Source: Thauera propionica (lineage in GTDB: Bacteria > Pseudomonadota > Gammaproteobacteria > Burkholderiales > Rhodocyclaceae). Taken from it: DNA of 64,000 nucleotides. The position numbers were made by a program, and so were the translations under genes. The notes under the pieces were generated by a model. The model ran no database searches and was not told the DNA's origin. It saw only the letters and a list, made by a program, of their open reading frames with translations. Positions 25,917 through 51,361 of the stretch are shown in pieces; position 1 is the stretch's first letter, and each line of letters starts with the position of its first letter. The DNA lies in assembly GCF_002245655.1 (NCBI RefSeq), contig NZ_NOIH01000007.1, positions 248,001-312,000 on the forward strand. The letters are read 5' to 3'.

Positions 25917-26564
25917 TCAGACTTCAATCAGCCCGCTCCGCACCGCGATCAGCGTCAATTCCGCAGCATTGCTCGCATTGAGCTTCTGCTTGATGTGATA
26001 GAGGTGCGTGCCCACCGTGCTGGGACTCAGGTTGTGGCTGCTCGCCACTTCCGATACCGAACGGCCCTGAGCAAGCTGGATGAAGACCGCGAATTCCTTC
26101 TCGGTCAGTGCCTCGAGCGGATCTGACGTTCCGCCGAGTTGCGCCAGCGCCAGTTGCGGCGCGAGCTCGGGGTCGAGGTAGCGCTTGCCACGCGCCACCT
26201 GGCCAACCGCACGGATGAACTCCTGCGGTTCGGCACGCTTGGACAGGTAGCCTGTCGCGCCCGCCTTCAGGGCGCGGCTCGGAATCTGGGCGTCCTCATG
26301 CGCGGAAAGCATCAGCACCCGCGCCTCCGGGGCATGCGCGCGCAGCCGCTCCAGCGCGGTGATGCCGCCGATGCCCGGCATGGACACATCCATCACCAGT
26401 GCGTCGGGCTTCAGCGCCAGGAACCGCGACACCGCGGCCTCGCCGCTGTCGGCTTCGCCCACCACCTGGGCGCCCGCACCCTCGAGCAGCAGGCGAAAGC
26501 CCATGCGCACGACGGCATGATCGTCGGCGAGCAGGATGCGCAGATTGTCCAGCGTCGAACCCAA
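25917..26564 (-). CDS. NarL/LuxR-type response regulator (AgmR/ExaE-like)
   Basis: A 215-residue regulator with a receiver domain: [21 protein letters not shown], phospho-Asp in [15 protein letters not shown] (about 55), and Lys in [14 protein letters not shown] (about 104). The LuxR-type HTH is at the C-terminus: [56 protein letters not shown] (about 148-205). No ATG fits; TTG at 26564, one base after the kinase stop with GGGAG upstream, gives the natural start. Proteins of this type (AgmR, ExaE) control PQQ-dependent alcohol oxidation in pseudomonads, so this one is a likely pqq/xox regulator. Confidence 0.87.
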
Positions 26565-26565
26565 C

Positions 26566-27987
26566 TCAAGTCTCCCGTGTGCTGTCCCGATGCGGCAGGC
26601 GGGCACAGACGCTGAGCCCACCGCTCGGGGGCGATTCGAAATACAGCTCGCCGTGCAGTTCGCTGACCCGCTCCCGCATTCCCAGCACGCCAAAGCGATC
26701 AGGTGCTGCAGTGCCCGAGAACCCGCGCCCATTGTCGCGCACGCGCAGCTCGAGCATCGCACCGATGCGCTTCAGACTCACTTCCACCTGGGTCGCCCCT
26801 GCGTGCCGGGCAACATTGGTCAGGCTCTCCTGCAGCAGGCGCAGCACGGTCAGGGCCAGCTTCTCGGACAAGGGCGCGTTCAGGGTGCCGAGGTCGAGCA
26901 CCACCTGAATGCTGGGATGGTGGTTGGACCATAAAGAACAGTAGTCGCGCACCGCATCGCCGATGGCGACATCGGCCACGGCGCTGCCGGGTCGCAGGCG
27001 CTGCAGGATGGAACGCACGCCGTCCTGCATCTGCCCGGTCATCGCCAGGATGGCCTGGGCGCTGCCGTGGATGGGCGGCAGCTGTTCGCTGCGCTGCATG
27101 ATGGCGCCGGCGATAGCGCGCACGGCCGTGATCGACTGCCCCAGCTCGTCGTGCAGTTCGCGCGCAATGACGCGGCGCTCCTCCTCCAGGCGCGCGTGCA
27201 GTTCGCGCGAGAAAGCCTGATCCTGTTCGAGGCGGGCATTCTGCGCGCGCGTGCTGTCGAGGCTGTCGGCGAGGCGGTTGTAGCTGCGCGCCAGCAGGTC
27301 GACCTCCGCGACCGGGTAGGCCGGCAACCGGGTCTGGAAGTTGCCTTCCGCGCCACGAATGAGCGCATCGCGAATCTGCGCAAGCGGAGCGAGGGCACGG
27401 TCCAGTGCCGCGCGGCTGATGACCCAGCCAAGCACGAGCAGCGCGCAGGCCCAGCCGAGTCCGGCGACCACGTTGTCCCATGCATCGAGTACCGCACGCG
27501 ACGCGTCCGGCACCATGCGGATGTGAAGTTCGCCGGCGGCGTAGTCGCGCGCGGCCAGTTCAGGCGTCAGCAACTCCGCGAACCAGGACGGCGCGAAGCG
27601 GCCCGCCTTGTAGGTCGGGGCGGGCGACACGTAGCGCAGCTCGCCCTCGGCGCCATAGACCTCAAGCTGGTTCGCCCGAACGCGGCCGACCGCGCCCAGG
27701 TGGGACATCAGCCGTGTCAGACCCTCGTCGCCGTCACGCACGGTTTCGTCGATCAGCACCACCAGCCATTGCTCGGCGACGCGACTCGCAGCCTGGATCT
27801 CCTCGTGGATCGCGTGGCGCGTCTCGCGCACCCAGGCGGTGCTGCCGACCACGAGGACGAGGGCGAGCAGGGCGGTGAGCACCAGCGTGACCCGGCTTCG
27901 CAGGGTGATCCTCGCGGCGGAGCGGGCGCCGGGCAGAGAACCGCGCTCGGGTGCGATGCCCGTCAGCCAGTGGATGAGCGACTTCAT
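26566..27987 (-). CDS. NarX-type sensor histidine kinase (HisKA_3)
   Basis: A 473-residue membrane kinase. A membrane helix at about 28-48 is followed by a periplasmic region to about 160, a second helix (about 163-183), and HAMP. The dimerisation domain HisKA_3 has EERRVIARELHDELGQSITAVRAIAGAI (phospho-His in ARELHDELG, about 272). The ATPase end has ESLTNVARHAGATQVEVSLK and RDNGRGFSGTAAPDRFGVLGMRERV. ATG at 27987 with GAGG upstream is preferred to TTG at 28005. It pairs with the adjacent regulator. Its ligand is probably an alcohol, aldehyde or redox cue, by analogy with quinoprotein regulators. Confidence 0.9.
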   Translation of the reverse strand: MKSLIHWLTGIAPERGSLPGARSAARITLRSRVTLVLTALLALVLVVGSTAWVRETRHAIHEEIQAASRVAEQWLVVLIDETVRDGDEGLTRLMSHLGAVGRVRANQLEVYGAEGELRYVSPAPTYKAGRFAPSWFAELLTPELAARDYAAGELHIRMVPDASRAVLDAWDNVVAGLGWACALLVLGWVISRAALDRALAPLAQIRDALIRGAEGNFQTRLPAYPVAEVDLLARSYNRLADSLDSTRAQNARLEQDQAFSRELHARLEEERRVIARELHDELGQSITAVRAIAGAIMQRSEQLPPIHGSAQAILAMTGQMQDGVRSILQRLRPGSAVADVAIGDAVRDYCSLWSNHHPSIQVVLDLGTLNAPLSEKLALTVLRLLQESLTNVARHAGATQVEVSLKRIGAMLELRVRDNGRGFSGTAAPDRFGVLGMRERVSELHGELYFESPPSGGLSVCARLPHRDSTRET

Positions 27988-28098: not shown

Positions 28099-28923
28099 TC
28101 ATGCCGTGGCCTTCAGTCGCAGGCTGGCCCGGGCAAAGAATCGCCCGCCGCCACAGGTGCGCAACACGAAGGGCTCGGACTGCGCGAGTGCCGCCTGGCC
28201 GACGAGCCCCGGCCACGGCGCGTCGAAACAGTCCGGACACAGCAGGCTGGCTCGCCGCTCGTCGATCTCGAGCAGATTGCGTGCGACGCGGTTGCCGACC
28301 ACCAACCGGCTTTCACGGTCGAAGACGGCCAGGGCCTCGAGCGGGCTGCCCAGTACCCCCGGGTGCGTATGGAAGCGGAGCATCAGGAATCCGCGTTCGT
28401 CGCTCTCGATCAGCCTGTGTTCGATGATGCCGGCGGTGGTCTGCAGCAGGGCGCCCGCATGGCTCAGGTTGTCGAAGGGTGCGGCAGACAGATCGAGGAT
28501 GCCGAGCACGCCGCCCAGCGGCGCGAGAATGGGCGCGGTGATACCCATCACGATCCGGTTGCCCGCAAAGACGGCGAACGTGCCCGATTCCGCATCGTCC
28601 GCATCTGCGCCGGGGTGCGCACCAAACCCGGCCGCCGCGAGTCGGGACGCTTCGCGGGTTGGGGACGCCTCACGGGTTGAGGACGTTTCCCGGGAATGAG
28701 AGGCCGCCGGCCGCAGCGGGCCGACGACGCCGAGGACGAATCCCTGGCGGTCCGCCAGCAGCACGGTAAGCGATGGGCTGGCCAACTGCTGGTGCAGGCT
28801 TTCCATGGCCGGCATCGAGAACGCGAGCAAGCGCTCGTGCTCGGCATCGAGCACGTCGCTTGCAGCAAGAGGCGCCGGGGAACCGGTGTCTGCGACATGC
28901 TCGGTGTGATCTGCTCGGCTCAT
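28099..28923 (-). CDS. Stand-alone GAF-domain sensory protein (AcoR N-terminal type, no AAA+ domain)
   Basis: A 274-residue protein. SMPAMESLHQQLASPSLTVLLADRQGFVLGVVG (about 36-68) and ITAPILAPLGGVLGILDLSAAPFDNLSHAGALLQTTAGIIEHRLI (about 128-172) match the N-terminal GAF module of AcoR-family sigma-54 activators. RFHTHPGVLGSPLEALAVFDRESRLVVGNRVARNLL (about 182-217) matches the PAS-like part that follows. It stops where the AAA+ domain should begin: no GAFTGA motif, no Fis HTH. A tandem repeat (28647-28700) lengthens the central loop. It lies 111 bases upstream of the kinase, on the same strand, after a sigma-54-like promoter. It may be a free sensor or the remnant of an activator. Confidence 0.7.
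   Translation of the reverse strand: MSRADHTEHVADTGSPAPLAASDVLDAEHERLLAFSMPAMESLHQQLASPSLTVLLADRQGFVLGVVGPLRPAASHSRETSSTREASPTREASRLAAAGFGAHPGADADDAESGTFAVFAGNRIVMGITAPILAPLGGVLGILDLSAAPFDNLSHAGALLQTTAGIIEHRLIESDERGFLMLRFHTHPGVLGSPLEALAVFDRESRLVVGNRVARNLLEIDERRASLLCPDCFDAPWPGLVGQAALAQSEPFVLRTCGGGRFFARASLRLKATA
28647..28700. repeat. Three degenerate 18-bp tandem repeats inside the GAF gene
   Basis: Units start at 28647, 28665 and 28683. The first two differ at three positions (ACGCTTCGCGGGTTGGGG, ACGCCTCACGGGTTGAGG); the third is more diverged. In the protein (minus strand) this gives S/T-R-E-A/T-S repeats at about residues 76-92, a hydrophilic insert in the GAF module. Confidence 0.8.
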
Positions 28924-28998: not shown

Positions 28999-29014
28999 TG
29001 CAGATTTCGTGCCG
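28999..29014 (-). promoter_or_regulatory. Sigma-54 (-24/-12) promoter, GAF-kinase-regulator operon
   Basis: On the minus strand CGGCACGAAATCTGCA has GG and GC ten bases apart and differs from TGGCACGNNNNTTGCA at two outer positions. The predicted start near 28988 leaves about 65 bases to the GAF start codon at 28923. It lies in the 341-base gap 28924-29264. Confidence 0.65.
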
Positions 29015-29104: not shown

Positions 29105-29264
29105 GAGTCCCGGCGCGCGGGCCCGGCCGCTGGGCTCAGATCCGCCTCGACCTGCCTGAAATCACCGCCCGGTGCGCCTTTCGGCACGTTTACTGCTAAG
29201 TCCAGGCAATGGCTGGCGCCGTTTCCCGCGCGCCGAAGCTGACGACACGAATCCGGGAGGGGGC

Positions 29265-30257
29265 ATGCGCACGATGTTTCGGGCCTGGCTGGCCATGCTG
29301 GTGATTTCCTGCGCGTTCAGCGCGGCGTCATCGCGCGCGGCGGAGCTGCCGACGATCCGCGTCGGTGTGCTGCAGTTCGGCACCGTCAGCTGGGAACTCG
29401 AGGCCATGCAGCGTGCGGGGTTCGACACCCGGGCCGGCATCCGGCTGCAGGTGGTGCCGCTAGCGCTGAAGGATGCGGCCAACGTCGCCATGCTCGGCAG
29501 CGCGGTCGATGTCATCGTCAACGACTGGATCTGGGTCGCCCGCCAGCGTGCCGAAGGGCGAGATTTCACCTTCGTACCGTACTCGCTCGCAGTGGGCGGC
29601 ATCATGGTCAGGCCCGATGCGGGCATCCGGGGCTTTGCCGATCTGCGCGGCAAACGCCTCGGCATCGCCGGCGGCCCCCTCGACAAGAGCTGGCTGCTGC
29701 TGCGCGCCTATGCGCGCCGTACGGTGGGCGAGGATGCGGCACAGTGGCTCAAGCCCGACTTTGTCGCGCCGCCGCTGCTCAACGAGCTGATGTTCAAGGG
29801 CGAACTGCCCGCGGGCCTCAACTTCTGGCATTACGCCGCCCGGCTGCAAGCCGCGGGCATGGTGCCGCTGCTCAGCATGGAAGAGATTCTCGCGACGCTC
29901 GACGTCAAGGCCGAGTTGCCGCTGGTGGGCTGGGTGTTCCGCGAGCAATGGGCCGCCAGCAATGCGGCCGCGATCCGGGGCTTCCTGCAGGCGTCGGCCG
30001 AAACGAAACGCCTGCTGCGCGAGTCGGACGAAGCCTGGCTGGCGCTGCGCCCGTCGATGAAGGTCGATGACGACGCCACCTTCGTGGCGCTGCGCGAGGG
30101 CTACCGCGCTGGCATTCCCGCCGCCAAGATGGGCGAGGCCGAAGAGGCCGCACGCAAGGTATTCGACATCCTCGCCGCAGAAGGCGGCACCGCGCTGGTG
30201 GGCAATGCGCGCAGCCTGGCGGCCGGCACATTCTGGACGGAGCACGCGGATCGGTGA
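29265..30257 (+). CDS. ABC transporter substrate-binding protein, SsuA/NMT1-like
   Basis: A 330-residue periplasmic protein. The ATG at 29265 follows GGGAGGGG and gives a clean signal peptide (about 1-25, ending SSRAAE). The fold is PBP2-like: PTIRVGVLQFGTVSWELEAMQ, AAVDVIVNDWIWVARQRAEG-type region at about 70-90, and GIRGFADLRGKRLGIAGGPLDKSWLLLRAYARR (about 120-152). These match the nitrate/sulfonate/taurine group, but this subgroup is not one I can assign a substrate. Position between the quinoprotein regulators and PQQ-associated ABC genes suggests a role in alcohol oxidation or cofactor/metal supply. Confidence 0.85.
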   Translation: MRTMFRAWLAMLVISCAFSAASSRAAELPTIRVGVLQFGTVSWELEAMQRAGFDTRAGIRLQVVPLALKDAANVAMLGSAVDVIVNDWIWVARQRAEGRDFTFVPYSLAVGGIMVRPDAGIRGFADLRGKRLGIAGGPLDKSWLLLRAYARRTVGEDAAQWLKPDFVAPPLLNELMFKGELPAGLNFWHYAARLQAAGMVPLLSMEEILATLDVKAELPLVGWVFREQWAASNAAAIRGFLQASAETKRLLRESDEAWLALRPSMKVDDDATFVALREGYRAGIPAAKMGEAEEAARKVFDILAAEGGTALVGNARSLAAGTFWTEHADR

Positions 30258-35962: not shown

Positions 35963-35978
35963 TGGCACGCCGCTTGCA
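35963..35978 (+). promoter_or_regulatory. Sigma-54 (-24/-12) promoter of the mxaD-like gene
   Basis: TGGCACGCCGCTTGCA matches TGGCACGNNNNTTGCA at every fixed position, with GG and GC exactly ten bases apart. The predicted start near 35988 leaves a 50-base leader to ATG 36038. It lies in the 131-base gap 35907-36037. Confidence 0.8.
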
Positions 35979-36037: not shown

Positions 36038-36586
36038 ATGGGCGTAAGCAAGAGGCAATTCCTGCTGCTGGTACTGGGCACAGCGCTGGCCGGCACGGCA
36101 TCCGCACACGGGCCGTCGCGGCTCAAGGTCGAACTCGGCATCGACATCGCCGCGCCGGCCGACAGGATCTGGGCCCGCATCGGTAACTTCCAGGACATGT
36201 CCTGGCATCCGGCGGTGGCCAGCTCCAGCGGCAACGGCGGCAACGCAGCCGAGGCCACGCGCGTGCTGGTTCTGAAGGGCGAGGGCAATCCGACGATCGA
36301 GGAGGCACTGCGTCGGCACGACGCCGCCGGGATGAGCTACGCGTACAAGATCACCAAGGTCGATCCCGCGGTGCTGCCGGTCAATAACTACGCCTCGACG
36401 CTGTCGGTGGAGTCGGTGGGCGAGGGCAAGAGCCGGGTCTCGTGGAAAGGCGCCTTCTACCGCGGCTATCCCAACAACGACCCGCCGCCCGAACAGAACG
36501 ACGATGCCGCGATCAAGGCCGTCACCGGCGTTTACCAGAGCGGACTGGATGCACTGAAGGCGGAGTTCGAGGGTGGCGCCAAGTGA
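36038..36586 (+). CDS. MxaD-like SRPBCC family periplasmic protein
   Basis: A 182-residue protein with a signal peptide (about 1-24, GTASAHG). The mature SRPBCC/START-like fold shows LKVELGIDIAAPADRIWARIGNFQDMSWHPAV (about 29-60), then EALRRHDAAGMSYAYKITKVDPAVLPVNNYASTLSVESVGEGKSRVSWKGAFYRG. This matches MxaD, a methanol-oxidation protein that stimulates electron transfer between methanol dehydrogenase and its cytochrome c. ATG at 36038 follows GGAGG. A sigma-54 promoter stands just upstream. Here no mxa gene accompanies it, so it probably serves XoxF. Confidence 0.85.
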   Translation: MGVSKRQFLLLVLGTALAGTASAHGPSRLKVELGIDIAAPADRIWARIGNFQDMSWHPAVASSSGNGGNAAEATRVLVLKGEGNPTIEEALRRHDAAGMSYAYKITKVDPAVLPVNNYASTLSVESVGEGKSRVSWKGAFYRGYPNNDPPPEQNDDAAIKAVTGVYQSGLDALKAEFEGGAK

Positions 36587-45550: not shown

Positions 45551-46450
45551 TCAGTAGACAATCGGATTCAGCTGCTCGTCGACCAAGGGCACGTGATACG
45601 CCTTGAGAATCCGATCGAGGTCATCCTTGTGCCGGTCGATCAGGGTCTCGATCTGCTTCTTCCACTCGGGTTCGCCGTAACGCACCCCCATCGCGATCTC
45701 GAAATCGAACTTGATGCCCGGCTCCGACTTCAGCGGCACCACGACAAGCTCCATGTCCTTGATCTTGCTGGCGTAGTACGCTGCGACCGGCCCCCACAGA
45801 ATCGCGACATCGATCCTGCCCTTGACGAGGTCGTTGTCGATCATCCAGCCAGGATAGTGTTCGGCCACGACATCCACCGTTGCGTAGGGCACGCCCTGGT
45901 CCACCAGGTCATGACGGGCCAGCCACTTCGACGCCGGCGACTTGTCGTACAGGCCGATCTTCAGCGCCTTGAGCGTTGCGGGATCGAGGCGCAGGAAGTC
46001 CTCGCCGGTCTTCACGCCATCCAGCCCCTTGCCTTTCGGAAACACAAGCGCATAGGTCGAGCGGTAGTAGGGTTTTGTGCCCGATACCTGGTCGAAACCC
46101 GCCGGCACGCCGAGCATCACATCGCAACGGAAGTCCTCGCCGGGCAACTTGTAGCGCAAGGTGTTGCGCACGAAAGCGAAGCGCTGCGGATAGGAGTAAT
46201 ACTTCACCGGTACACCGAGGCTGCCGGCGAACAGTTCGGCGATGCGGTTCTCGAGACCTTCTCCCTTGTCGTTGGAGAAGGGCATGTTTGCGGGGTCCTG
46301 ACAGACCTTGAGTTCCTTCAGCGGCGGCGCCCCTTCGTTGGCCGAGACCGCGCCAGCGCCAAGCAGTGCGGCGCCGGTGCCGAGCGCGACCAGCAAGGCA
46401 CGCAGGCTGCGGCGGGATGCCGGCACGCCAGTTTGTGCAAGAGTCCTCAT
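45551..46450 (-). CDS. xoxJ: XoxJ/MxaJ-like periplasmic substrate-binding protein
   Basis: A 299-residue protein with a signal peptide (about 15-38, GAVSANEG). LKVCQDPANMPFSNDKGEGLENRIAELFAGSLGVPVKYYSYPQRFAFVRNTLRYK (about 47-100) and DVMLGVPAGFDQVSGTKPYYRSTYALVFPKGKG (about 110-142) are MxaJ/XoxJ signatures. GWMIDNDLVKGRIDVAILWGPVAAYYASK follows at about 200. XoxJ is thought to help XoxF mature or activate. AAGGAGATCGCCGA precedes the ATG. Order on the minus strand is xoxF, cytochrome c, xoxJ, matching known xox operons. Confidence 0.93.
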   Translation of the reverse strand: MRTLAQTGVPASRRSLRALLVALGTGAALLGAGAVSANEGAPPLKELKVCQDPANMPFSNDKGEGLENRIAELFAGSLGVPVKYYSYPQRFAFVRNTLRYKLPGEDFRCDVMLGVPAGFDQVSGTKPYYRSTYALVFPKGKGLDGVKTGEDFLRLDPATLKALKIGLYDKSPASKWLARHDLVDQGVPYATVDVVAEHYPGWMIDNDLVKGRIDVAILWGPVAAYYASKIKDMELVVVPLKSEPGIKFDFEIAMGVRYGEPEWKKQIETLIDRHKDDLDRILKAYHVPLVDEQLNPIVY

Positions 46451-46475: not shown

Positions 46476-46883
46476 TCATTCGATCGCCTGGACGCGGGCC
46501 GAGGTGATCGCGCCGTCGGAGCGCCCCTTGAGATAGGCGTAGAGGTGATCGATGTTGTCCATCACCCGCGCGTCGTTCTTGAAGCTCTGCATGCCCTTGT
46601 CGAGGCGACCTTCGGTGACGGTCGTGACGAACTCCTCCTTTGTCAGCCTCTTCAGGCTCTCGATCAGCGACGGGCCGACCATGCCTTCCTGGTTCGCGCC
46701 GTGGCAGCGATCGCAGGCGGCAGCCCGCCAGGCTCGGAAACCCTTCAGCGTATCGGGGTCGACCTTGTTGCCGTCGACGACCGTGTACAGCGGCTTGCCA
46801 TCGTCGGCCGGCTTGGCATCCGCTGCGTGCAGCGGTACGGCGAGGGCGAGGGTGACAAGGGCAAGGGTATTGATGAAACGCAT
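46476..46883 (-). CDS. xoxG: Cytochrome c (XoxG-type electron acceptor)
   Basis: A 135-residue class I cytochrome c. ATG at 46883 follows GGAGG and gives a signal peptide (about 1-20, LHAAD). ACDRCHG (about 56-62) is the single CxxCH haem site; DKGMQSFKNDARVMDNIDHLYAYLKGRSDGA (about 95-125) gives the likely Met ligand. At 135 residues it is shorter than the usual XoxG/MxaG proteins. It lies between xoxF and xoxJ, so acceptance of electrons from XoxF is the expected role. The fit to XoxG is by position. Confidence 0.85.
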   Translation of the reverse strand: MRFINTLALVTLALAVPLHAADAKPADDGKPLYTVVDGNKVDPDTLKGFRAWRAAACDRCHGANQEGMVGPSLIESLKRLTKEEFVTTVTEGRLDKGMQSFKNDARVMDNIDHLYAYLKGRSDGAITSARVQAIE

Positions 46884-46948
46884 ACGGTATTCCTCCGGGT
46901 ATCCGGCCGGGGCCCGCACGGGTCCCGCCGGCATGCAAGCGGGGAAGG

Positions 46949-46988
46949 GCGCCCCCGCGGGCGCTGCGGCGGGCACCGAGCCCGCCGC
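46949..46988 (-). promoter_or_regulatory. Two GC-rich hairpins between xoxF and the cytochrome gene
   Basis: GCGCCC (46949-46954) pairs with GGGCGC (46959-46964), and GCGGCGGG (46966-46973) pairs with CCCGCCGC (46981-46988). They fill most of the 114-base gap between the xoxF stop (46998) and the cytochrome start (46883). Neither has a T-run. They may make the abundant xoxF message more stable than the downstream genes. Confidence 0.5.
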
Positions 46989-46997
46989 ACCTACGGG

Positions 46998-48833
46998 TCA
47001 GTCGGGCAGCGCAAAGACGGTCAGCGAACCGCCCAGTTCCGTGTATTGGCTCAGTTCGCGATAGCCACCCACGGCGCCCAGACCGTCGGTGTCCTTCTCG
47101 AGACCGGCGGCCATGCCGATGCCGGCCCAGCCGCCGATGCCCGAGAACACGCCGAGATACTGCTTGCCCTTGTGCTCATAGCTGAACACGTTGCCGATGA
47201 TCCCGGACGGGGTCTTGAACTTGAACAGCTCCTTCGTGATGTCCTTGGCATCGACGCACTTCAGGTAGCCTTCCAGTGTGCCGTAGCACGAGATGCCGCC
47301 CGCGGTGTTGAGTACGCCGCTCCACACCGAGAACTTCTCGGACTTGGACTGCACGATCTTGCCCGCGCTCGCATCCCAGGTGATGAAGTTGCCCATGCCG
47401 CCGTGACTGTCCGGTGCGGGATACATCGACAGCGTGGCGCCGACATAGGGCTGACCGGCGACGTAATCGACTTCGAACGGCTCGTAGTCCATGCAGACGT
47501 GGTTGGTCGGCACGTAGAAGAGCTTGGTGTTCGGGTCGAAGGCTGCGGGCTGCTGGTCCTTGGTGCCCAGCGCAGCGGGACAGATGCCCTTCACGTTCAC
47601 GTCCGGGCCGTGCTCGGGGTTGGTGTGCTTGGACGTGGAGTACTTGGCGACCACCTGCGGCCGACCGGTCTTCATGTCGACGTGCGAGGCCCAGTTCACC
47701 TTCGGGTCGTACTTTTCGGCCACCAGCAGTTCGCCGGTCACGCGGTCGAGCGTGTAGGCGAAGCCGTTACGGTCGAAGTGCACCAGCGCCTTGGTGGGCT
47801 TGCCCTTGACGTCGATGTCGGCAAGGATCATTTCGTTCACGCCGTCGAAGTCCCACTCGTCGTGCGGCGTCATCTGATAGACCCACTTCGCCACGCCGGT
47901 GTCGAGGTCGCGGGCGAAGATGGTCATCGACCACTTGTTGTCACCCGGACGCTGCGTCGGGTTCCAGGTCGAGGGGTTGCCGGTGCCGTAATAGACCATG
48001 TTGGTGGCCTTGTCGTAGCTGAACCAGCCCCAGGTCGTGCCACCACCGGTCTTCCACTGGTCGCCCTGCCAGGTCTTCAGCGACGAATCCTTGCCGACCG
48101 GCGCCATCTTGCCGTCCGTCCAGGTCATCGTCTTTTCGGGGTCCATCAACATCTCGTTGTCGGGGCCGGTGCTGTAGCCCTTCCACACCTGCTTGCCGGT
48201 GTTGATGTCGTAGGCTGCAAGGAAGCCACGTACGCCCCATTCGCCACCCGAGATGCCGGTGATGACCTTGTTGCCGAACACGTGCGGCGCCTGGGTATTC
48301 ACGGCGCCGAGCTTCGGATCGCCATTGACCACGCTCCACAGCACCTTGCCCGACTTGGCATCGAGCGCAACCAGGGTCGAGTCGGCCTGCTGCAGGAAGA
48401 TCTTCCCTTCGGCGTAGGCCAGGCCGCGATAGACCGTGTCGCAGCACATCTGCGAGATCACGAACGGATCCTGCTTGGGCTCGTGCCTCCATACGATCTT
48501 CTGCGTATCGAGGTCGATCGCGAAGACCTTGTTGGGGAAGGGCGAGTGCACGTACATCATGCCGTCGATGACGAGCGGCGAGCCTTCATGGCCCCGCAGC
48601 ACGCCGGTGGAGAACATCCACGCGACCTGCATCTTGCCGACGTTGTCCTTGTTGATCTGGTTGAGCTTGCTGTAGCGCTGGTTGAACATGTCGCCGGCTT
48701 GCGCTGCCCAGTTCTTCGGGTTGGCCATCTTGCTTTCGAGGTCGGCGTTCGCCAGTGCGAGTCCCGGCATTGCGAGCAGAAGTGCAGCGATCAGCGCCGG
48801 ACTGCGCCGGGCAGGAATCCCTTGTTGCTTCAT
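46998..48833 (-). CDS. xoxF: Lanthanide-dependent PQQ methanol dehydrogenase XoxF
   Basis: A 611-residue periplasmic quinoprotein, eight-bladed propeller. ATG 48833 follows GAGGAG, giving a 28-residue signal peptide (GLALANA). Cys130-Cys131 ([11 protein letters not shown]) is the vicinal disulfide. Predicted metal ligands are Glu198 (GGEWG), Asn286 ([10 protein letters not shown]) and Asp328 ([12 protein letters not shown]), with Asp330 the extra aspartate that marks lanthanide use (Ala in calcium MxaF). No MxaI small-subunit gene is nearby, also like XoxF. It oxidises methanol, probably to formaldehyde or formate, passing electrons to the cytochrome encoded next. A sigma-54 promoter lies about 109 bases upstream of the start codon. 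Confidence 0.97.
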
Positions 48834-48941
48834 CTTTGTCTCCTCGTTTGTTTGACGTTTTGCGCTCGCCACCTTCAAAGCCCGAAACCCGCCGCGCATG
48901 CGGGGCCGGTGTGACCAGGAAATCCGGCGTGCCCCGATCAA

Positions 48942-48957
48942 TGCAAAGCACGTGCCA
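48942..48957 (-). promoter_or_regulatory. Sigma-54 (-24/-12) promoter of xoxF
   Basis: Minus strand TGGCACGTGCTTTGCA matches TGGCACGNNNNTTGCA at every fixed position with exact 10-base spacing. The start would be near 48931, giving a 98-base leader to ATG 48833. Confidence 0.85.
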
Positions 48958-49052
48958 ACTGTCACGAAGCAGTAAGATGCTTGCCCGCCGGGCGGTTCGA
49001 GGAACTCCGCAACCCCACCGGAGCCCCGAAAAGGGATGTGATTTTTTGCACG

Positions 49053-49069
49053 GACTGGCAATGCCGGTC
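49053..49069. promoter_or_regulatory. Imperfect palindrome between xoxF and the first H4MPT gene
   Basis: GACTGGCAATGCCGGTC has 8-bp arms with one mismatch around a central A. It lies 51 bases before ATG 49120 and about 96 bases beyond the xoxF -24 box. It may be an operator shared by the divergent genes. I found no convincing -35/-10 pair in the rest of the gap 48834-49119. Confidence 0.35.
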
Positions 49070-49119
49070 ATGCGTGTTGCAATACGGTTCAAGTGCTTCG
49101 TTTTGACACAGGAGTCACG

Positions 49120-50331
49120 ATGCCCGCGCCACGGCAAGCCCCCTCGAAGGTCGAGTCACCCGCCCGCATCACGCGCGGCGCGCCCGGACGACCTGCGCTC
49201 GCCATCGCTGCGACGTCGGCAAGGTTGCTGGCGGAAGCGGCACGGGCCTCGGGATTCGACGTGATCGCCATCGACGTCTTCGGCGACGTCGACACGCGCG
49301 CGGCGGCACAGGCATGGATGCCGCTCGGCATGCCGGGCCGCCTGGCGCCGGAGGAGGGCAGGCTTGTCGCCGCGCTGCGCCGGTGCGCTACGCTGCCGCA
49401 CCTGGTCGGATGGATAGCCGGCAGCGGCTTCGAATCTGCACCCGCGCTGCTCGCCGCCGGGGCCGACGTGCTGCCGCTGCTCGGCAACCTGCCGCGCACG
49501 GTGGCACAGGTGCGCACACCGGGCGACTTCTTCGCGACGCTGACACGACTCGGGATTCCGGCGCCCGAGATCTCACTCGAACCGCCTGTGGCTTCGAACG
49601 GCTGGCTGTTCAAGGACGCACACGCCTGCGGTGGCTGGCATATCCGTCCTGCGGCGCGGACGCCCGCCGAGCCGGGCCCCGGAGCCTATTTCCAGCGCGA
49701 GGAGGCGGGCGGCGCGATGTCCGCGCTCTTCCTAGCGAACGGCGCATCTGCCGTCATCGTCGGCTTTGCCCGCCAGATCGTCGCCCCGCTCGGGCGACGC
49801 CCTTACGTCTATCGGGGTTGCGTCGGCCCGGTGACACTCCCGTCGCCGCAAGCCGCCGAGGTCGCCGACGCCGTGGGCGCGCTGACCCGCCACTACGGCC
49901 TGCGCGGACTCAATGGCATCGATTTTCTTTTTGGAACGGACGGCATCCAGGTACTGGAACTCAACCCGCGGCCCACGGCCAGCCTCGCCCTGTTCCACGA
50001 TGTGATCGCAGCTGGCCTGCTGGCCGCGCATGTCGATGCCTGCGCCGACGGACGTCTGCCCGACCCCGGGGACATCCCGCCATCGGCGAATGTGCGTGGC
50101 AGCGAAGTCGTCTTCGCTCCGGCACGGGGAACGGTCACGCCCGCGCTGGCGGACTGGCTCGCGGCACAACCGGACTGCCACGACCTGCCGGCCGCAGGCA
50201 CGCCCTTCGCGCGCCACGACCCGTTGTGCTCGATCACCTGCGAAGGGAAGACTCCCGCCGAGGTCGAGACAAGACTGAGCAGGCGATGCGAGGCGATCCT
50301 GTCGCAACTGGGCGACGCCGAACCCAGGTAG
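49120..50331 (+). CDS. ATP-grasp protein of the H4MPT cluster (COG2232, ORF5-like)
   Basis: A 403-residue protein. ATG 49120 follows CAGGAG. The N-terminal Rossmann-like part has ARAITRGAPG-type Arg-rich start and PALAIAATSARLLAEAARASGFDVIAIDVFGDVDTRAAA. The ATP-grasp fold has GWLFKDAHACGGWHIRPA, GPGAYFQREEAGGAMSALFLANG and GLNGIDFLFGTDGIQVLELNPRPTASLALF (about 270-300) with metal-binding E-x-N. Relatives in methylotrophs and archaea lie with H4MPT genes and are needed for cofactor synthesis in M. extorquens; the substrate is not known. First gene of the fae-mch region. Confidence 0.85.
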   Translation: MPAPRQAPSKVESPARITRGAPGRPALAIAATSARLLAEAARASGFDVIAIDVFGDVDTRAAAQAWMPLGMPGRLAPEEGRLVAALRRCATLPHLVGWIAGSGFESAPALLAAGADVLPLLGNLPRTVAQVRTPGDFFATLTRLGIPAPEISLEPPVASNGWLFKDAHACGGWHIRPAARTPAEPGPGAYFQREEAGGAMSALFLANGASAVIVGFARQIVAPLGRRPYVYRGCVGPVTLPSPQAAEVADAVGALTRHYGLRGLNGIDFLFGTDGIQVLELNPRPTASLALFHDVIAAGLLAAHVDACADGRLPDPGDIPPSANVRGSEVVFAPARGTVTPALADWLAAQPDCHDLPAAGTPFARHDPLCSITCEGKTPAEVETRLSRRCEAILSQLGDAEPR

Positions 50332-50365: not shown

Positions 50366-51361
50366 ATGCGTGCCGCTTGCGCACATCACCTCATCACCGC
50401 AGCGAGACAGGATTTGAGCAGCACGACGACTCCGCCGAACCCAACCGCATTCCCGCACGCGGCCGACGCCTTCCTGTGGGCCTGCTTCATGGACGTCGCC
50501 ACCTTCAAGCCCGGCAACGTCAGCCTGCAATCGGCCGGACACGACATGCAGGCGCAGCAGTTCCTCGACAGTGCGCGCGCCAGCGCGGCGGGGCTGTTTG
50601 CCGAGAACGCCGGTGTCGGCGCGAGGGTGCACACCGCCGTGCGGGCCACGCGCGCCGTGGCGGGGTGCAACACCAACCTCGGCATCCTGTTGCTGTGCGC
50701 ACCGCTGGCACACGCAGCGCAGCGCGCCAGAGAAGGGTGCGAGGCGGCGCTCAGGGCCGCCCTGGAGGAGACGCTCGCCGCGCTCGATCTCGACGATGCG
50801 CGCGCAGCCTTCGCCGCGATCGCGCACGCCAGTCCCGGCGGATTGGGTGAGGCCAGCGCGCAGGATGTCCACGCACCGCCCAGCGTCGATCTGCGGGCCG
50901 CGATGGGCCTCGCCGCGCATCGCGACCGCATCGCGATGCAGTTTGCGGACGGCTACCGCGACATCTGGCGTGCGCTGGACGATTTCCGCCAGCCGCAGCG
51001 CGATCCCGACCTCTCGCGCCGCATCCAGCGCCTCTATCTTTCGCTGCTGGCCCAACACCACGATTCGCACATCGCCCGCAAGTACGGCAGCGAGACGGCG
51101 GCCGACGTCAGCGTTTCGGCCGCCGCCGTGCTCGCCCGTCTCGATGCAGGAGAGTCCGGCGACGATGGCAGCGATCAGGCTGAGCTCGACGCCATGCTGC
51201 AGGCGTGGGACGCGAGCCTGAAGGCCGCGGGCCTGAACCCGGGCACCACGGCAGACCTCACCGTGTGCGTCCTGTTCATCGCCGCCTTGCTCGAGCCATC
51301 GCTCATGCGCCCGGCATCGGAGGCGCAGGGCGCGACGCCCCGGTGGCCCGGAGCTTGCTAG
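50366..51361 (+). CDS. CitG/MdcB-like (triphosphoribosyl-dephospho-CoA synthase family) protein
   Basis: A 331-residue all-helical protein. FLWACFMDVATFKPGNVSLQSAGHDMQAQQFLDSARASAAGLF (about 35-77) contains the KPGNV-x-x motif of CitG-like proteins, and TRAVAGCNTNLGILLLCAPLAHA (about 91-113) the GxNTNLG motif. HDSHIARKYGSETAADVS (about 231) carries further conserved residues. CitG makes a CoA-like prosthetic group for citrate lyase, but there is no citrate lyase here. This is the ORF7-type protein linked to H4MPT synthesis in methylotrophs. The start is unsure: ATG 50366 or TTG 50414. Confidence 0.85.
   Translation: MRAACAHHLITAARQDLSSTTTPPNPTAFPHAADAFLWACFMDVATFKPGNVSLQSAGHDMQAQQFLDSARASAAGLFAENAGVGARVHTAVRATRAVAGCNTNLGILLLCAPLAHAAQRAREGCEAALRAALEETLAALDLDDARAAFAAIAHASPGGLGEASAQDVHAPPSVDLRAAMGLAAHRDRIAMQFADGYRDIWRALDDFRQPQRDPDLSRRIQRLYLSLLAQHHDSHIARKYGSETAADVSVSAAAVLARLDAGESGDDGSDQAELDAMLQAWDASLKAAGLNPGTTADLTVCVLFIAALLEPSLMRPASEAQGATPRWPGAC

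Follow-up and report, generated by a model that had tools for sequence, protein, structure and literature searches.

A conserved -24/-12 element upstream of xoxF and a predicted sigma-54 regulon for methanol and formaldehyde oxidation in Thauera

The regulatory systems described so far for xoxF and pedH are MxbDM, MxcQE, MxaY/MxaB and PedS2/PedR2 (PMC11845868). Like the control proposed below for Thauera, these govern lanthanide PQQ dehydrogenases, but they are two-component or response-regulator systems, and the available text of that source mentions no sigma-54 promoter for any of them. The same holds for the wider literature on xoxF together with sigma-54 or rpoN: no sigma-54 xoxF promoter is reported in the part covered, which takes in few of the subscription papers, and the terms sigma, GAF and rpoN are absent from PMC9291206. 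The initial annotation of the DNA studied here had remarked that xoxF regulation is not usually described as sigma-54 dependent, and these sources, as far as their text was available, agree with it. The switching of xoxF has been described for only a few model methylotrophs.

Sigma-54 is an established partner in neighbouring areas of metabolism. In methanotrophs, the genes for soluble methane monooxygenase (mmoX) offer a close likeness, with C1 oxidation genes, -24/-12 promoters and the gene of a sigma-54 activator, MmoR, nearby, and inactivation of rpoN in Methylosinus trichosporium abolished mmo expression, according to the accessible part of PMC5874634; that system governs methane oxidation, whereas the Thauera case concerns methanol oxidation. 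Within the genus itself, the alcohol-responsive enhancer-binding protein BmoR of Thauera butanivorans acts on the sigma-54 promoter Pbmo from a distant upstream site, as set out in the available portions of PMC8899819 and PMC8784404. The target of BmoR is a butane (alkane) monooxygenase, in contrast to the lanthanide methanol dehydrogenase and tetrahydromethanopterin (H4MPT)-linked formaldehyde oxidation genes considered here. BmoR already serves as a biosensor part. A third precedent is exaA of Azospirillum brasilense Sp7, a PQQ alcohol dehydrogenase gene which is sigma-54 dependent (as cited in the accessible text of PMC6115532); its partner is a LuxR-type regulator and its product a glycerol-induced alcohol dehydrogenase, not XoxF. 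Ligand-sensing activators working with sigma-54 thus have precedents in the methane and butane monooxygenase systems, and a PQQ alcohol dehydrogenase offers one with a different partner; what our comparisons predict as new is the extension of such control to XoxF and the formaldehyde branch.

In the analysed 64-kb stretch of Thauera propionica DNA (the window), xoxF lies on the minus strand at 46998..48833 and encodes a lanthanide-type PQQ methanol dehydrogenase (TIGR03075, 709 bits). The product belongs to the PQQ alcohol dehydrogenase family and carries the D-F-D form of the D-x-D lanthanide motif, within a W-D-F-D sequence which we take to be the lanthanide signature; a role of lanthanides in the control of the gene is putative. 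The genes that follow, for a c-type cytochrome (46476..46976, minus strand; TIGR03874 at 57 bits, under the cut-off) and a MoxJ-like substrate-binding protein (45551..46450, minus strand; TIGR03871 above the cut-off), are presumably on the same transcript. Upstream, on the minus strand at 48957..48942, is TGGCACGTGCTTTGCA, which contains the GG-N10-GC core, matches the consensus TGGCACG-N4-TTGCW at 12/12 fixed positions and is predicted to be the sigma-54 promoter of xoxF on the basis of this match and its conservation. The ATG of xoxF is at 48833, 109 positions downstream of the element, and is preceded by a GAGGAG ribosome site. The sequence, strand, coordinates (48942-48957), 10-base spacing and distance of 109 bases from the start codon given in the initial annotation are thereby all confirmed.

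The statistical weight of such a motif depends on how strictly it is read. The pattern TGGCAC-N5-TTGCW occurs twice in the window, where a mean of 0.04 copies is expected from 100 dinucleotide shuffles, none of which reached two copies. Tolerating up to two mismatches yields 13 matches where 14 are expected, and only near-perfect -24/-12 matches therefore carry meaning. Across the whole genome TGGCAC-N5-TTGCA is found seven times, compared with two for a reversed control pattern. Taken without conservation, the motif would be moderate evidence for a promoter; the case for the xoxF element is strong because the element is conserved.

This conservation was assessed in a sample of 29 Thauera genomes, 16 of which contain xoxF at at least 87% identity (two of them cut by a contig end), and was counted on 15 loci, as the remaining locus has no upstream DNA. 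All 15 carry TGGCAC-N5-TTGCA upstream of xoxF, with the first base of the element 124 to 154 nt ahead of the ATG. In an alignment of these loci, none of the element's 11 fixed columns varies while the N5 spacer takes seven forms, and invariant gap-free columns number 0/51 in the 60 nt upstream of the element and 24/83 downstream. Pairs of sequences are on average 40% identical upstream of the element, 90% within it and 66% downstream, and the element is the sole invariant stretch upstream of the leader. The hypergeometric probability of its invariance is 3e-8, a figure that assumes independent columns and takes no account of relatedness. A scan of xoxF upstream regions in related genomes had been proposed in the initial annotation as a check, and its outcome is favourable, with the motif in every testable Thauera locus amid diverged surrounding DNA. 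One xoxF from another genus of the family (L015) has TGGCACAGGTTTTGCG upstream.

Similar sites stand before other genes of the same metabolism. Four of the seven exact TGGCAC-N5-TTGCA sites in the genome precede genes of, or among, alcohol and C1 oxidation genes, namely xoxF, an SRPBCC-family gene at 36038, fhcB and, on contig C2, a gene for a cytochrome c that lies some 15 kb from a second PQQ dehydrogenase. The other three were left out of the candidate regulon, two (L048 and L050) since they are inside genes and one (L049) since no listed gene start follows shortly downstream. The fhcB site (contig C55:312189-312204, 189 bases beyond the window end) is exact, and TGGCA[CT]-N5-TTGC[AT] precedes fhcB in 15/15 genomes that have the gene; fhcB itself scores below the curated cut-off of its family, while the gene that follows, fhcA, exceeds its own. 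The gap between this site and the ATG is 12 bases in all 15 species save one with 11 (G023), which places the predicted start at the start codon and would mean either a nearly leaderless sigma-54 message or another role for the site.

Within the window, a site of sequence CGGCACGTTTACTGCT (29182..29197, plus strand) is found ahead of ABC and PQQ-alcohol-dehydrogenase-system genes starting at 29265, and the best site upstream of this PQQ-linked ABC operon scores at least 10/12 in 10/11 Thauera relatives. Divergent from it, CGGCACGAAATCTGCA (28999..29014, minus strand) precedes a gene for a sensor-like protein (28099-28923), but here the best site in 11 relatives scores 8 to 10 of 12, and the case is weaker because 8/12 is common in shuffled DNA. 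The second full-consensus site of the window (35963..35978, plus strand) is 60 nt ahead of the SRPBCC gene and, among 15 genomes, is an intergenic site in this genome and its nearest relative, G017, and weak in G023; best scores in seven others are 8 or 9 of 12. Matches in the remaining five (G006, G013, G001, G021 and G002; TGGCATT(T/C)TTCTTGCT) were dropped, since we read them as falling at the end of the ABC permease coding sequence upstream. Two further sequences score 11/12: TGGCCCGGAGCTTGCT at 51344, which is within a gene end and 91 nt ahead of the next gene, and AGGCACGACTGTTGCT at 72583, with no gene shortly downstream.

These additional sites bear on the idea that the xoxF element is the binding site of some other protein or a chance match. 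That 2/7 exact copies in the genome are inside genes would fit such an origin, yet which positions are held constant and which vary across 15 Thauera species corresponds to sigma-54, and the sites ahead of fhcB and the ABC operon are similar; we regard this explanation as very improbable.

Transcription from a sigma-54 promoter requires an activator. In this genome there is a single rpoN match, along with 12 strong matches to Sigma54_activat, of which one stands out as a candidate. It is encoded beyond the window, near the fhc genes, at G000:C55:320767-322797, on the xoxF contig about 24 kb from xoxF and 5.6 kb past fhcA. The protein combines GAF, Sigma54_activat and Fis-type HTH domains, lacks a receiver domain and contains the GAFTGA loop, the contact with sigma-54; among the NCBIfam matches listed (25 of 31), all are below their cut-offs. 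This protein and BmoR may be one kind of activator, the BmoR/AcoR type. The two systems resemble one another, in the available text on BmoR, in sharing a genus and in pairing an alcohol-responsive enhancer-binding protein, as the candidate would be, with a sigma-54 promoter.

The distribution of this activator follows that of xoxF closely. Full-length orthologues (at least 65% identity) are present in 15/16 Thauera genomes with xoxF, the exception (G015) having the activator as pieces only, and in 0/13 without it, where the full-length matches are paralogues of at most 64% identity (Fisher P 2e-7). In a maximum-likelihood tree the 15 activators of xoxF-containing Thauera form one clade with support 97/96. 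This tree was built from 28 rows of 31, three being left out by a length limit and the GAFTGA loop being required, and gave a long-branch warning for two sequences (L161 and L042), both outside the 15-member clade. The activator is on the xoxF contig in 11 of the 15 genomes, 24 to 57 kb from the gene, and the xoxF contigs of the other four are 4 to 34 kb long. Shared linkage in an island accounts for part of the co-occurrence, which may indeed reflect only that both genes travel in one island.

The conservation of the element, its counterparts ahead of fhcB and the ABC operon, and the co-occurring activator together indicate that xoxF of Thauera is probably sigma-54 dependent. The proposal made in the initial annotation, that sigma-54 controls xoxF by way of an enhancer-binding activator, is supported in the same manner, by the 15/15 loci and by an activator that looks dedicated to the task, and we infer it on these grounds. 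We consider it likely that xoxF is transcribed from the -24/-12 element by sigma-54 as a member of a small C1 and alcohol regulon, with the fhc-linked protein as the most likely activator. RNA polymerase with sigma-54 would initiate from 48942-48957, with a predicted start near 48931, about 12 nt past the -12 GC, and a leader of about 98 nt. The regulon would comprise xoxF, fhcB and the PQQ-linked ABC operon, with the SRPBCC gene as a further member in this species and its nearest relative. The N-terminal part of the GAF, AAA and Fis protein would sense an alcohol or related metabolite, as reported for BmoR, and the protein would bind at a putative upstream site, bring about a DNA loop and use ATP hydrolysis to remodel the closed complex. 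Given that a sigma-54 promoter gives no transcript without its activator, lanthanide methanol oxidation would then be an on/off response to a sensed metabolite, and the control of xoxF, if this is true, would be more than a metal-driven swap of two enzymes.

A different regulator could serve the xoxF element in place of the fhc-linked activator, be it another enhancer-binding protein or a kinase and LuxR pair. The genome offers several such regulators with its 12 strong Sigma54_activat matches, and a GAF-type paralogue of the candidate activator (55% identity) shares a contig with the second PQQ dehydrogenase. Within the window, moreover, a histidine kinase and LuxR-type regulator pair is encoded on the minus strand at 25917-27987, the two predicted frames overlapping by about 170 bases; in the regions fetched from relatives the kinase is found in 11/11 and the LuxR-type regulator in 9/11; in both exceptions the fetched region stops at the kinase. 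This pair could be the lanthanide switch, or might even work with sigma-54, as a LuxR-type regulator does for exaA in A. brasilense, the precedent described in the accessible part of PMC6115532. The fhc-linked clade, however, tracks xoxF through the genus (15/16 versus 0/13), and lineages outside Thauera with a strong xoxF element have a relative of this activator (39 to 43% identity) at most 6 kb away. We judge it unlikely, while giving it more weight than the other alternatives, that a regulator other than the fhc-linked protein acts at the element. Adjoining the pair is the gene of the sensor-like protein mentioned above (28099..28923, minus strand), which is 25% identical to the N-terminal part of the activator (E 5e-11), without AAA and HTH domains and without a Pfam match. 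It is present in 11/11 fetched relatives at 38 to 86% identity and might modulate the candidate activator.

Outside Thauera, 78 xoxF loci (79 less one that was too short) were scored within 350 nt upstream. A score of at least 10/12 was reached by 13, where the opposite strand gave one and shuffles gave 1.8, and at least 11/12 by eight, where the opposite strand gave none and shuffles 0.2. These eight belong to Massilia (3), Pollutimonas, Candidimonas, a Nevskia MAG and two less classified MAGs. The proximity of activators was followed in 24 genomes, hand-chosen from 80 loci and consisting of the eight high scorers and 16 others. The activator relatives of 39 to 43% identity are those found at most 6 kb from xoxF in 7/7 testable high scorers; in the eighth (G103) the xoxF match is near a contig start and the activator on another contig. 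Among the matches listed for the 16 other genomes, an activator at most 6 kb from xoxF occurs in 0/16, and the nearest is 7.3 to 9.9 kb away in four. Methyloversatilis xoxF (two loci) has no -24/-12 element and many other loci have no strong one, so that sigma-54 control is not general for xoxF.

When the flanks of the 80 loci (up to about 3 kb) were searched with profiles, activator genes turned up at four, two of which (L082 and L084) have the element and two (L079 and L081) do not, a result that speaks against the pairing. In the latter two, which are outside the 24-genome set, the activator gene is directly upstream of xoxF and a TTGACC..TATAG-like sigma-70 promoter can be recognised by eye. 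Such promoters in relatives, along with the two-component systems by which xoxF control is described in the available text of PMC11845868, would fit a main xoxF promoter of the sigma-70 type under a lanthanide two-component switch, with the -24/-12 transcript minor or conditional. A strict sigma-70 consensus scan of 48700-49250 on both strands found no match, however, and nothing upstream of the leader other than the -24/-12 element is invariant in the Thauera alignment; we hold a main promoter of the sigma-70 type to be improbable.

Returning to the reading in which sigma-54 and a linked activator control xoxF, we lean, with only slightly more confidence than doubt, towards a broader form of it. 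XoxF and the H4MPT formaldehyde branch would constitute one sigma-54 regulon in methylotrophic Thauera under a dedicated ligand-sensing activator, the pairing of xoxF promoter and activator would recur in Massilia, Pollutimonas/Candidimonas and Nevskia-like bacteria, and this architecture would stand apart from the two-component switches.

The DNA between xoxF and its divergent neighbour has further features. The neighbour, an ATP-grasp gene (49120..50331, plus strand; PF02655), is the first of a set of H4MPT-related genes, with mch and fae following. Adjoining it is a block of the form AGCACTTG-N2-CC-N3-TTGCA (49078..49097, minus strand), a candidate enhancer or divergent-promoter element with a single exact copy in the window. 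A loose form of the block (AGCAC, 12-16 bases, GCANC) is found in 12/15 Thauera upstream regions, 218 to 396 nt ahead of the xoxF ATG; given its closeness to the divergent gene, the block at 49078-49097 may belong to that gene rather than to xoxF. A dyad search of the DNA upstream of xoxF, fhcB and the SRPBCC gene found just low-count G+C-rich dyads shared between them, none convincing as an enhancer site. An Rfam search of 48700-49250 gave no match at E up to 1. The predicted xoxF leader contains a 5-bp hairpin (48888..48904, minus strand) with all five pairs kept in 15/15 Thauera rows. Among its pairs there are C-G to U-G changes, and one pair is changed on both sides in one sequence.

The second PQQ dehydrogenase (L136:7356-9155) also has the W-D-F-D motif, and by this motif both PQQ alcohol dehydrogenases found in the genome look lanthanide-type. 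Since both carry D-F-D, a calcium-dependent counterpart for a swap may be absent from this genome. About 80 nt ahead of the ATG of this second gene is TGGCATGGTGCTTGCG. Repeats resembling GGAGCAC / GTGCTCC can be seen by eye at L136:6900-7360 and L047:1300-1516, upstream of two genes with -24/-12 sites, the second PQQ dehydrogenase gene and the one for the contig C2 cytochrome c, and they are possible sites of the paralogous GAF-type activator.
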